This document shows, piece after piece, positions 9,583-57,706 of a stretch of DNA of 64,000 nt. Both the position numbers and the translations under genes were made by a program. Numbering within the stretch: position 1 is the stretch's first letter; every line of letters begins with the position of its first letter. Origin of the DNA: Ferrovibrio sp. (GTDB lineage: Bacteria > Pseudomonadota > Alphaproteobacteria > Ferrovibrionales > Ferrovibrionaceae); contig NZ_JANLJJ010000023.1 in the NCBI RefSeq assembly GCF_029255545.1, forward strand, positions 1-64,000. Direction: 5' to 3'. The notes below the pieces were generated by a model. The model was not told the DNA's origin and made no database searches. It saw only the letters and a list, made by a program, of their open reading frames with translations.

Positions 9583-9635
9583 GTTTTGCACCGCAGCAAC
9601 GGATATTACCGTACAGCACGCCTGCGGAGAGTGGG

Positions 9636-11819
9636 ATGCGAGACATGACCGAGACGACCGCGCCAGTAAATTTTCCCGAGGCCTGGGCGAAGATGGCCCA
9701 GAAGGAACTGGGCGACAAACCGCTCTCCGAGCTGCTGTGGCAGACGCCCGAAGGCATCACGGTCAAGCCCCTCTACACCGCCGCCGATCTCGAAGGACTG
9801 GAGACGCTGAATTCCCTGCCGGGCTTCGATCCCTTCACGCGCGGCGTGCGCGGCACCATGTATGCCAACCGGCCCTGGACGATCCGCCAATATGCCGGCT
9901 TCTCCACCGCCGAAGAATCCAACGCCTTCTACCGCAAGAATCTCGCCGCCGGCCAGCAGGGCGTTTCCGTCGCCTTCGATCTGGCCACCCATCGCGGCTA
10001 CGATTCCGATCATCCGCGCGTGGTGGGCGATGTCGGCAAGGCCGGCGTGGCGATCGATTCCATCGAGGACATGAAGATCCTGTTCGACGGCATCCCGCTG
10101 GATAAGATGAGCGTGTCGATGACCATGAACGGCGCCGTGCTGCCCGTGCTGGCCTGCTATATCGTTGCCGCCGAGGAGCAGGGCGTAAAGCCCGACCAGC
10201 TCTCGGGCACCATTCAGAATGACATTCTGAAGGAATTCATGGTGCGCAACACCTATATCTATCCGCCGGCGCCCAGCATGCGCATCATCGCCGATATCAT
10301 CGGCTATACCGCGCAGCATATGCCGAAGTTCAACTCCATCTCGATCTCCGGCTACCATATGCAGGAAGCCGGCGCGACGGCCGTGCAGGAGCTGGCCTTC
10401 ACCCTGGCCGATGGCCTGGAATACGTGCGCACGGCCATTAATTCTGGCCTCGATGTCGATGCCTTTGCCGGTCGGCTCAGCTTCTTCTTCGCCATCGGCA
10501 TGAACTTCTTCATGGAGATCGCCAAGCTGCGCGCTGCGCGCTTTTTGTGGGCGCGCATCATGAAGCAGTTCAACCCGAAGAAGGCCGGGTCGTCGATGCT
10601 GCGCACCCATTGCCAGACCTCGGGCGTCTCGCTCACCGAGCAGGACCCCTACAACAACGTGGTGCGCACCGCGATCGAGGCCATGGCCGCCGTGCTCGGC
10701 GGCACGCAGTCGCTGCATACCAATGCGCTGGACGAAGCCATCGCTTTGCCGACTGAATTCTCCGCCCGCATCGCGCGCAACACCCAGCTGATCATCCAGG
10801 ACGAAACTTACGTCACCAGGGTGGTCGATCCGCTCGGCGGCTCGTATTACGTCGAGGCGCTGACCCATGCGCTGGTCACCCACGCCTGGGCGCTGATCCA
10901 GGACGTCGAGGCCATGGGCGGCATGACCAAGGCGGTCGAAAGCGGCATGCCCAAGCTGAAGATCGAGGAAGCCGCCGCCCGTCGCCAGGCCCGCGTCGAC
11001 AAGGGCGAGGATGTCATCGTCGGCGTCAACAAATACCGCACGGCCAGCCAGGACGTGCCGGACCTGCTCGAGGTCGACAATACCCGCGTGCGCGAGCAGC
11101 AGGTGGCAAGGCTCAAGACCATCCGCAACACCCGCGACAAGGCGAAGGCGGAGGCCGCCATTCGCGCGCTTGAGGACGGTGCTGCCGGCAAGGCCAATCT
11201 GCTTGAGCTTTGCGTGCAGGCGGCGCGTGCGCGCGTCACCGTGGGCGAGATGTCCGATGCCATGGAGCGCGTCTTCACCCGCCACCAGGCCACCATCCGC
11301 TCGATCAGCGGCGTCTACGGCGCGGCCTATGCCAATGACGAGGGCTTCATGCAGATCCAGAAGGACATCGAGGCTTTCGCCGCGGAGGAAGGTCGCCGCC
11401 CGCGCATGCTGGTGGTCAAGCTGGGTCAGGATGGCCATGACCGCGGCGCCAAGGTGATCGCCACGGCCTTCGCCGATCTGGGCTTCGACGTCGATGTGGG
11501 CCCGCTGTTCCAGACGCCGGAGGAAGCCGCCAAGGACGCCATCGAAAACGACGTGCATGTGATCGGCGTGTCCAGCCAGGCCGCCGGCCACAAGACGCTT
11601 GTTCCCCAATTGATCAAGGCGCTGCACGACCAGGGCGCCGGCGACATCCTGGTGATCACCGGCGGCGTGATCCCGCCGCAGGATTACGATTTCCTGCGTC
11701 AGGCCGGCGTGGCCGGCATCTACGGCCCCGGCACCAATATCCCGCAGGCAGCTGCTGAGATCGTCAGGCTGATCCGCCAGCGGCACGCGCCCAGTGCCGC
11801 CAAGGGGGCGGCGGAGTAA
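9636..11819 (+). CDS. scpA: Methylmalonyl-CoA mutase, single-chain B12-dependent enzyme
   Basis: 727 residues, full length. The N-terminal barrel has the substrate-binding signature around [13 protein letters not shown] and [15 protein letters not shown]. The C-terminal cobalamin domain has the DGHDRG base-off motif near residue 600 and a late GGVIPPQDY strand. It converts methylmalonyl-CoA to succinyl-CoA, completing propionyl-CoA use. The companion propionyl-CoA carboxylase and epimerase are not in the window. The ATG at 9636 follows GGAGAG; a second ATG nine bases on could also serve. Confidence 0.96.
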
Positions 11820-53730: not shown

Positions 53731-55062
53731 ATGTCGCTCGCGCTTGAGCTGATCCTCATCGCGGCGCTGATCCTGCTCAACGGCATGCTTGCCATGTCGG
53801 AGCTGGCGGTGGTGTCATCGCGGCGCGCCCGGCTGGAAGCGCTGGCGCGCCGGAAAACCGCGGTGGCGCGCGGCGCCAGACTGGCGCTGAAACTGGCAGC
53901 CAATCCGGGCCGCTTTTTGTCCAGCGTGCAGATCGGCATCACCCTGGTCGGGATTCTCGCGGGCGCCTTTTCCGGCGCCACACTGGCCGATCGCTTTTCC
54001 ACCTGGATCGAAGCCACCTATCTGGTGGCCGAACCGATTGCCGATGGCATCGCATTTAGCGTGGTGGTGGGCAGCGTCACCTATCTGTCGCTGATCATCG
54101 GCGAGCTGGTGCCCAAGCAGCTGGCGCTGAAAAAACCCGAGCCGATCGCCGCCGCCATGGCGCCTTTACTGGCCGGCCTGGCCTGGATCGCCAGCCCGGT
54201 CATATCGCTGCTCGACATTTCCTCCAAGCTGGTGCTGCGCCTGCTGGGCGCCGGCGCCAGCAACACGGAAGCGGTGACGGAAGAGGAAATCCGCCATCTG
54301 GTGGCCGAAGCCGAAAGCGCCGGCACGGTGGAGCCGGCCGAGCGCCAGATGATCGCCGCAGTGCTGAAACTGGGCGACCGCGCGGTGCGCAGCGTGATGA
54401 CGCCGCGCCACGATCTTGACTGGCTTGATCTCGATGCGCCGCATGACGAACTGGTGCAGCGCCTGCGCCAGACCATGCATCTGCGCCTGCCCGCCTCGCA
54501 TGGCTCGATCGACGAGCCGGTCGGCATCGTCGGCGTGAAGGACGTGTTCGATGCGCTGCTCGATGGCGGCCGCGACCAGCTCGCCGCGAAAGGCTTCGCC
54601 GAGCTGATCCGCCCGGTGCCCGCGGTGCATGAAAGCGCCGACGTGCTGGACGTGCTGGCCTTGCTGAAGACCTCGCCGGCCGGCATGGCCTTCGTGGTCG
54701 ATGAATTCGGCAGCCTGGAAGGCGTGGTCACCGCCAGCGACATCCTGCAGACCATTGCCGGCGATTTCGCTTTTCCCGATGGCGAGGCACCCGACCTGGT
54801 GCAGCGCGAGGATGGCTCCTGGCTGATCGATGGCAGCCTGCCGCGCGAGGACATGGCCGACCGTCTCGGCCTGCATCTGCCCGAGGAGGAAGGCCATACC
54901 GTGGCCGGCTTCCTGCTCGCCCGTTTTGGCCGCCTGCCGGTGGCCGGCGATGCGGTGGAGTGGCATGGCTGGCGCTTCGAGGTGATGGACATGGATGGCC
55001 GCCGCATCGACAAGGTGCTGGCGGTGCCGCCGCGCGAGGCGGTGGCGGCGCATGATTCCTGA
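53731..55062 (+). CDS. CNNM/CorC-family (hemolysin-like) transporter
   Basis: 443 residues. The N-terminal DUF21/CNNM membrane domain (about 1-190) shows LLNGMLAMSELAVVSSRRAR and SLIIGELVPKQLALKKPEPI. A CBS pair (about 215-345) begins at RSVMTPRHDLDWLD. The C-terminal CorC/HlyC transporter-associated domain follows, with LPREDMADRLGLHLPEEE. Members take part in Mg2+ or Co2+ export. It is a single gene with no obvious partner. Confidence 0.9.
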   Translation: MSLALELILIAALILLNGMLAMSELAVVSSRRARLEALARRKTAVARGARLALKLAANPGRFLSSVQIGITLVGILAGAFSGATLADRFSTWIEATYLVAEPIADGIAFSVVVGSVTYLSLIIGELVPKQLALKKPEPIAAAMAPLLAGLAWIASPVISLLDISSKLVLRLLGAGASNTEAVTEEEIRHLVAEAESAGTVEPAERQMIAAVLKLGDRAVRSVMTPRHDLDWLDLDAPHDELVQRLRQTMHLRLPASHGSIDEPVGIVGVKDVFDALLDGGRDQLAAKGFAELIRPVPAVHESADVLDVLALLKTSPAGMAFVVDEFGSLEGVVTASDILQTIAGDFAFPDGEAPDLVQREDGSWLIDGSLPREDMADRLGLHLPEEEGHTVAGFLLARFGRLPVAGDAVEWHGWRFEVMDMDGRRIDKVLAVPPREAVAAHDS

Positions 55063-55161
55063 CCGCCGTCAGGGAAGCGCGCAGAGTTTCAGGTAATTAT
55101 CGGTCGCCGCGGAACCGGTGTGAAATCCGGCAGTTTCCGTATGGACGGCCATGCTTCGGGC

Positions 55162-55248
55162 AAAAAAAGGGGCCGCACCGAAGCGCGGCCCAAGTCTAGG
55201 GAGGAAACGCCCGAGAAGGGCATGCAACAAACCGGAAGCTTGTTGCGA
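55162..55248 (-). ncRNA. MmgR/alpha-r8-like small RNA
   Basis: The minus strand carries, in order: a hairpin with stem GCAACAA/TTGTTGC (55240-55246 with 55224-55230), a short GCCC/GGGC hairpin, the single-stranded core TTTCCTCCCT (55198-55207), and an intrinsic terminator GGGCCGC/GCGGCCC running into seven T. From memory the ten-base core is the conserved centre of the alpha-r8 family, whose MmgR member in Sinorhizobium limits polyhydroxybutyrate storage. The core is complementary to Shine-Dalgarno sequences. Confidence 0.8.
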
Positions 55249-55253
55249 TGCAA

Positions 55254-55282
55254 AAAATAATGGGTTCGACAGTGCAGTGCAA
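55254..55282 (-). promoter_or_regulatory. Promoter of the MmgR-like sRNA
   Basis: On the minus strand TTGCAC (55277-55282), a 17-base spacer and TATTTT (55254-55259). Transcription would start near 55248, giving an RNA of about 87 bases, the size expected for this family. Confidence 0.6.
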
Positions 55283-55532
55283 GAGGAAAAATGGTGTCCC
55301 GCGTCACATTAACAAAAACATATACTTGAGACATTTTTTGAGTCGAATCGGGGCTTTCCGCGACAGATTGTTAGTTCACATTCTATTGTGCGGGCGCGAA
55401 AAGCGAGAGAGTGTTGCGCCCGGAACACAGGCAGACGCTTTTTTAATCAGAGCCGGAATGGGCAGCAGAAGGCCGTAAGCGGACGAATCGGCCATCGCCC
55501 ACAGGTCCGGCGGGTGGTTCCGGCCCGGCAGC
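55283..55532. other. Intergenic region without a recognised gene
   Basis: AT-rich in its first half. It contains an imperfect hairpin GGGCGC/GCGCCC near 55391-55421, about 17 bases before a six-T run; the distance is too great for a normal terminator. A short plus-strand frame (55248-55478) runs antisense to the sRNA and is not supported. Confidence 0.4.
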
Positions 55533-55604: not shown

Positions 55605-56384
55605 TCAGAAGTGCCAGGCAGTGCCCACGCGGATGATATGCGCGGTCAGTTCGGCGTCGTTATCCGTCGTGTAGCCGGCAACATTGGCCGGCACGCCTTT
55701 GGCGCCATTTTTCTCGACCTTGCCAAGATAGGCGTAGAGATACTCCGCCTTCAGGCTCCAGCTTTTCGACAGCGCATATTCCAGACCGCCGCCGGCCGTC
55801 CAGCCGAGCAGCAGCCGGTCCTCCGACAGCCCTTCGGAATGATATGCGACGTTGGTCTGCGTGAATTTCTGGTCCACCCGGGCATGGGTCAGGGAGACGC
55901 CGCCCGTGGCGAACAGCAGCAGATTGCCGGAGAGCGCCTCGGGCACATAACCCACGCGCGGGCGCAGGCCGGCGAAGAAATCCGTTTCTACCTTCTGGTC
56001 CAGCCGGTAGGTACTGCCCGACGTCAGGACCGTTGCCGTGACCGACGACGACTCATTCAAGCCGAGATAGCCGGCCTCGGCTTCCAGGCCATAGACCAGG
56101 CCGCCGCGTTTCACCTGATAGCCGCCATACAGGCTGCCGGTGAAGGTCGCGGAATCCAGATCCGTCTTGCGCCGCCAGAAATTGCCGTCGGCAATGTCAT
56201 TGGCGTTGCCGGTGATAAATGTTCCCGTCGGATTGAGGCTCATGTCGGCCTTGCCGATCCCGGCGCCGGCCGTGACGCCGGTATAGGGGCCCGACCAGGC
56301 CGAATCATCCGCTGCCCGGCTGCTGCCGGCGGCCAATACGATGGCCATCGCCAAGAGTGTCATTCTGACAGGCGCGATGCGCAT
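55605..56384 (-). CDS. Outer-membrane beta-barrel protein (Omp25/OmpA-barrel type)
   Basis: 259 residues. A signal peptide (MRIAPVRMTLLAMAIVLAAG, cleavage near SRAADD) precedes a mature protein of alternating strands with Gly/aromatic ends, e.g. SGPYTGVTAGAGIG, YGGYQVKRGGLVYGLEAE and AEYLYAYLGKVE. The C-terminal residues VGTAWHF end in Phe, the outer-membrane insertion signal. About eight strands are likely. I chose the ATG at 56384, preceded by GTGGGGAA; a second ATG lies at 56399. Confidence 0.88.
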   Translation of the reverse strand: MRIAPVRMTLLAMAIVLAAGSSRAADDSAWSGPYTGVTAGAGIGKADMSLNPTGTFITGNANDIADGNFWRRKTDLDSATFTGSLYGGYQVKRGGLVYGLEAEAGYLGLNESSSVTATVLTSGSTYRLDQKVETDFFAGLRPRVGYVPEALSGNLLLFATGGVSLTHARVDQKFTQTNVAYHSEGLSEDRLLLGWTAGGGLEYALSKSWSLKAEYLYAYLGKVEKNGAKGVPANVAGYTTDNDAELTAHIIRVGTAWHF

Positions 56385-56520
56385 GCTTTTTCCCCACATA
56401 AAAACGCAACCCGATTTTACGGAACATATTCTACTAGCGCTACATGATTATTGGCCGGTGGAATACTAGTCTTCAGAAAGAGAGCAATAAATCGAAAGCC
56501 GGCTGTGGGCGCCAGCATGA

Positions 56521-57175: not shown

Positions 57176-57286
57176 GGTTTCCTCCGTCTGTGGCGCCAGA
57201 CTAGGGCGAAATTCGTGTGGAACAAAGCGTCCGGCCGGGGGTTACCGCTAAGGCAGCCCCTAGACAATCTGACGCAGGAGGTTTTC

Positions 57287-57706
57287 ATGCATGTTGCATC
57301 CATGATCCGCACGCATCCCCGGGTTGGCGGCGACGCCGCGCCCGATGAGAGTCTGGTCCGCTGCATCGAGGCCTGCCTCGACTGCGCCCAGACCTGCATC
57401 GCCTGCGCCGATGCCTGCCTGGCGGAAGATGACGTCGACCGGCTGCGGCAATGCATCCGGCTCGATCTGGATTGCGCCGATTTGTGCAATGTCGCGGCCA
57501 CCGTGGCCTCGCGGCGCACCGGCGCCAACCAGACAACCCTGCGCGCTTTGCTGGCGGCCTGCGCCGAAGCCTGCCGGGTCTGCGGCCTGGAATGTGAGCG
57601 CCATGGCGAAACGCATGGCCATTGCCGCATCTGCGCCGCGGCCTGCCACCATTGCGAACGGCTCTGCCGCCAGGTGGCGGATGCCGCCGCGCCCATGCTG
57701 CAGTAG
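57287..57706 (+). CDS. Cys-rich four-helix-bundle copper-binding protein
   Basis: 139 residues with 18 Cys, mostly in CxxxC and CxxC pairs along predicted helices ([20 protein letters not shown], then [12 protein letters not shown] and [15 protein letters not shown]). This is the pattern of copper-storage proteins, which hold many Cu(I) ions inside a four-helix bundle. No signal peptide is evident, so it would act in the cytosol. AGGAGG precedes the ATG at 57287; the longer open frame upstream overlaps the divergent gene. Confidence 0.88.

Follow-up and report, generated by a model that had tools for sequence, protein, structure and literature searches.

The closest described relatives of the present locus are MmgR of Sinorhizobium meliloti and the siblings SisA-D of Caulobacter crescentus. 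AbcR1 and AbcR2 of rhizobia, which are Hfq-dependent and exert an anti-Shine-Dalgarno action on transporter mRNAs, belong to another family; when the whole window (the complete 64-kb stretch of DNA that was analysed) was scanned against Rfam, only RF00519 and a tRNA were matched above the gathering score. Caulobacter SisA represses mRNAs with Hfq, pairing through the same 10-mer core that is found here (PMC12559287). In S. meliloti, PhaR recognizes the motif WNWD2NYGCRNYGCRNH2WNW and represses mmgR; it shifts the mmgR promoter in EMSA, an effect abolished by mutation of the palindrome (PMC12542648). Under the name suhB, the family was described as early as 2005 from many alphaproteobacteria, including Caulobacter with its four copies (PMC1273637), and as alpha-r8 it is reported from all Alphaproteobacteria but Rickettsiales (PMC12559287). 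The original prediction stressed an occurrence well outside the rhizobia; the host does belong to a Ferrovibrio-like order, but since the family is long known from many alphaproteobacteria, the argument for novelty fails and the find does not help to define the family anew.

The locus resembles MmgR of S. meliloti in its RF00519 membership, UUUCCUCCCU core, family hairpin, terminator and PhaR-type promoter palindrome. It is also of similar size (about 86 nt as compared to 77 nt). It differs in a stable 10-bp 5' hairpin, in having two palindromes, over the -35 element and at the start site, and in the poor predicted pairing of its core with phasin mRNAs. With SisA-D it shares the alpha-r8 family, an Hfq-encoding host, several siblings per genome and the CCUCCCU core; SisA adjoins an FGase gene, whereas the main copy of this genus faces a CNNM/CorC-type transporter gene in convergent orientation.

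Anatomy and family membership of the sRNA gene

The assignment to the MmgR/alpha-r8 family, made at first from the letters of the sequence, was borne out by the Rfam covariance search. RF00519 (suhB/mmgR, 'Makes More Granules Regulator RNA') matches over its full model (1-77) at 55228-55155 on the minus strand with 70.6 bits and an E value of 1.5e-12, as compared to a gathering score of 41 bits, and the 10-nt core 3' of the hairpin as well as the Rho-independent terminator after the core were found. The promoter, two hairpins, core and terminator of the original prediction were all located on the minus strand as described (Table 1), the transcript measuring about 86 nt in place of about 87. 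Its 5' end (near 55247) is placed from the position of the -10 element and its 3' end from the T tract. Both hairpins precede the terminator hairpin, and the terminator scan recovers the same stem-loop as the fold. The free energy of the predicted fold (−41.1 kcal/mol) is far more negative than that of 200 dinucleotide shuffles (−25.0 ± 3.1 kcal/mol; z −5.2), none of which folds as well.

Table 1. Positions of the sRNA features, the adjoining genes and the sibling copies
Feature	Position	Strand	Basis or remark
Predicted mature alpha-r8 (MmgR/SisA-type) sRNA, ~86 nt	55162..55247	-	RF00519 match and fold
-35 element TTGCAC	55277..55282	-	Sequence; CTTGC kept in 8/8 genomes of the genus
-10 element TATTTT	55254..55259	-	17-nt spacer to -35; T-A..T positions kept in the genus
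PhaR/AniA-type palindrome TGCACTGCA, overlapping -35	55273..55281	-	Matches YGCRNYGCR of PMC12542648; conserved in the genus
PhaR/AniA-type palindrome TGCATCGCA, at start site	55244..55252	-	Sequence match; conserved in the genus
5' hairpin, 10 bp	55224..55246	-	Fold; beyond the main part of the Rfam model
Family hairpin ATGCCC-TTCTC-GGGCGT	55207..55223	-	Rfam match and fold; invariant in the genus
Anti-Shine-Dalgarno core TTTCCTCCCT	55198..55207	-	Single-stranded in the predicted fold except the first base; invariant in the genus
Intrinsic terminator	55162..55191	-	Stem 55191-55170, T tract 55168-55162; fold and terminator scan
Convergent neighbour, CNNM/CorC_HlyC/CBS-domain transporter protein	53731..55062	+	Pfam
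Upstream neighbour, outer-membrane beta-barrel protein	55605..56399	-	Pfam; outside the sRNA unit
Divergent alpha-r8-like sibling	G000:C39:8348-8426 (L002 1501-1579)	+	33 bits to RF00519; core CCTCCCTGTTAAGACTT, strong terminator
Third CCTCCCT-plus-terminator unit	G000:C115:77874-77925 (L220)	-	Beside a TetR-like gene

Family membership, a promoter of its own, the structure, an exposed core, the terminator and the two PhaR-type palindromes can all be read from the DNA, and expression, PhaR binding and targets are predicted from them. The locus is well supported as a real sRNA gene and a new member of the known alpha-r8/MmgR family; it is the main alpha-r8 copy of a Ferrovibrio-like bacterium and an ordinary representative of that family. 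The promoter is absent from the listing of a generic sigma-70 scan, but the call is supported by its conservation within the genus, where the sequence between the palindromes drifts but CTTGC, both palindromes and the distance separating them are conserved.

Across eight aligned genomes of the genus, the core, the second hairpin and nearly the whole terminator stem are invariant. All pairs of the 5' hairpin hold in these eight. A single pair has changed at both positions, from A-U to G-C, and in four more only one partner differs; 99.0% of cells are paired as compared to 97.4% in shuffles, which amounts to modest covariation evidence for this hairpin. Two other loci, L098 (G005) and L104 (G007), are like the genus sRNA in their 5' half and differ in promoter and terminator, which looks like a fusion of the 5' domain to another terminator.

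Distribution, neighbourhood and sibling copies

Each of the 18 genomes searched from the host's order has the family, 17 of them above the cut-off. In the class-wide sample it was recovered from 46 of 77 genomes, 39 of them above the cut-off, a figure obtained with stricter search filters than those used for the order and with many small genomes among the negatives.

Five more genomes of the genus have the convergent transporter gene next to the sRNA, and the nearest relatives of its protein, at 71% identity, belong to one Ferrovibrio sp. MAG and one alphaproteobacterial MAG. Elsewhere in the window, 57278-57706 (+) encodes a small Cys/His-rich protein with a weak DUF326 match, which resembles a four-helix-bundle copper storage protein.

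Linkage to FGase (N-formylglutamate amidohydrolase) was not found for the window sRNA, the two FGase genes of the genome being on C91 and C111 and the sRNA on C23. As evident from tblastn, FGase adjoins 23 of the 28 class-wide alpha-r8 copies and three other copies in the order, but no locus of this genus has it as a neighbour. Siblings B-D of Caulobacter are also without an FGase neighbour (PMC12559287), and hence its absence here does not exclude family membership; the linkage is usual, not obligatory.

Several siblings per genome are known for the alpha-r8 family. The pattern CCTCCCT-N24-54-TTTTTT occurs at exactly three places in the genome (as compared to two for the reversed pattern), namely the window sRNA, the C39 copy and the C115 copy. 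The PhaR-type site TTGCGTCGCAGCA precedes the C39 sibling by about 60 nt, and a close copy of this sibling is present in G008 (L109). The counterpart of the C115 unit in G013 (2425425-2425509) scores 31.7 bits to RF00519; a PhaR-type site was not seen in the stretch upstream of the C115 unit.

PhaR-type palindromes in the promoters of alpha-r8 genes

The two promoter palindromes of the window sRNA follow the YGCRNYGCR pattern, and the genus keeps their 29-nt spacing. We infer PhaR binding to the sRNA promoter from this motif. Both the main copy and the second, divergent sibling on C39 carry such a putative PhaR operator in this genome. Within the order, a site lies upstream of 21 of 24 alpha-r8 loci, and the 32 sites counted exceed those in shuffles (2.9) and of the reversed pattern (2), the loci being related and hence not independent. 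In the class-wide sample, which holds one genome per family, 19 of 28 alpha-r8 loci have an upstream palindrome and nine are without it; 25 sites were recorded as compared to a shuffle mean of 3.0 (maximum 9 in 500) and none of the reversed pattern. When the stricter TGCRNYGCA was binned along the loci, 26 sites fell in the two adjoining 110-nt bins just upstream of the sRNA, with at most two per bin elsewhere.

The host genome holds 14 occurrences of the extended motif TTGCRYYGCARCA as compared to two of the reversed pattern, and the neighbours of the motif include phaZ, a divergent ccr-like/ecm-like pair and methylmalonyl-CoA mutase. Within the window, a methylmalonyl-CoA mutase gene that starts near 9636 is closely preceded by the PhaR-type site TTGCACCGCAGCA (9586-9598). 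The site at L123 1501 (G000:C70:15900), between divergent crotonyl-CoA reductase-like and ethylmalonyl-CoA mutase-like genes, suggests PhaR control of the ethylmalonyl-CoA pathway. At G000:C29:9361 and C29:9584 (L118, L164), a coxG/coxS-like cluster combines a PhaR-type site with a GGGAGGAAA ribosome-binding site, the latter on the gene of its 2Fe-2S subunit; this cluster is a possible joint target of PhaR and the sRNA.

These palindromes alter the ground on which the locus may be tied to poly-hydroxybutyrate (PHB). Control of PHB by direct targeting of phasins is not supported, and a link to PHB through the PhaR-type sites in the sRNA promoter takes its place. It is slightly favoured that control by PhaR and PHB is an ancestral, class-wide trait of alpha-r8 genes, which would form the RNA arm of a PHB-sensing regulon and would not be a rhizobial speciality. 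A class-wide palindrome at alpha-r8 genes was not found stated in the literature searched, which did not cover key work on mmgR phylogeny and regulation, and its novelty is uncertain. It is this class-wide palindrome, and not the family membership, that is the part worth following.

Proposed circuit, candidate targets and rival explanations

The window RNA is probably an Hfq-dependent sRNA under repression by PhaR, and its anti-Shine-Dalgarno core would block ribosome-binding sites, in feedback with PHB. PhaR, the PHB-sensing repressor, would occupy the sRNA promoter until PHB granules form and titrate it off the DNA, whereupon the sRNA would be made and bound by Hfq. Its core UUUCCUCCCU would then pair with uptake and catabolic mRNAs at their G/A-rich ribosome-binding sites, and the resulting block of translation would restrain carbon inflow and PHB build-up, thereby closing a negative feedback loop. 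As SisA pairs through the same core, blocking of ribosome-binding sites is the most likely mode of action for the window sRNA.

Targets were sought by pattern matching. The pattern GGGAGGAAA-N1-12-ATG yielded 19 sites in the genome and none when reversed; many of them lie at solute-binding proteins and catabolic enzymes, and one is simply the C115 sibling read in antisense. A control Shine-Dalgarno sequence, AGGAGGAAA, yields a similar mix of genes, although part of the core can pair with this control as well, so that it is not a clean negative. The enrichment in solute-binding proteins is thus not specific, and transporter mRNAs, proposed earlier for target prediction, were rejected as a specific target class while individual transporter mRNAs stay possible targets. 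Three GGGAGGAAA sites, at genes for a LivK-like binding protein, a TRAP-type binding protein and an apparent bile-acid:Na symporter, look orthologous between G000 and G013 by the N-termini of the proteins; these genes are the best target candidates only. Phasin genes and hfq are encoded in the host genome. Direct targeting of phasin mRNAs is not supported, as the start regions of the two phasin genes pair with the core at −11.4 and −12.4 kcal/mol, weaker than the mean of −14.9 kcal/mol for a rough background of 79 start regions taken from the long ORFs of the window, antisense ORFs among them.

The reading that the locus is no gene, and that the match arose by chance or is a piece of the 81-aa ORF at 55089-55334 (-), is very improbable. 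The mechanically called ORF does overlap the sRNA and the generic promoter scan misses its promoter; however, the E value of the Rfam match, the conservation of the core and the paired stems, and the presence of the family in every genome searched of the order all speak for an RNA gene. Moreover, the hairpin loops carry single-base indels between relatives within the genus, which would break the reading frame, and the protein-coding reading of this ORF was rejected on that account. It is also quite unlikely, if less so, that a transcript is made and acts otherwise, as a CrfA-like sponge target or a competitor for Hfq, or that it is hardly expressed while the C39 and C115 siblings do the work. 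In its favour, the genome has two sibling units, and the Caulobacter siblings, whose expression levels differ, are targets of sequestration by the sponge CrfA (PMC12559287). Against it, no sibling comes near the score of the window copy (70.6 as compared to 33 bits), and almost every genome of the genus has retained this high-scoring copy.

The rival that comes nearest to the proposed circuit accepts an alpha-r8 sRNA and takes the palindromes for sites of another TGC-type regulator, with no tie to PHB in this organism. This, too, is rather unlikely. PhaR binding is read from a motif that is short, its TGCRNYGCA core occurring 10 times within the window, and no common upstream motif was reported for the four alpha-r8 siblings of Caulobacter (PMC12559287). 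Yet the host genome has a phaR gene, the same palindrome precedes phaP1, phaP2, phaZ and phaR in it, and the pattern matches the EMSA-tested PhaR motif of S. meliloti, the mmgR site included (PMC12542648).

For the preferred reading of a PhaR-repressed sRNA in feedback with PHB, the palindromes predict that the anti-Shine-Dalgarno sRNA and the PHB sensor would form one circuit in most Alphaproteobacteria. One such scheme could explain both the rise in PHB on loss of MmgR in Sinorhizobium and the governing of carbon uptake by SisA in Caulobacter.
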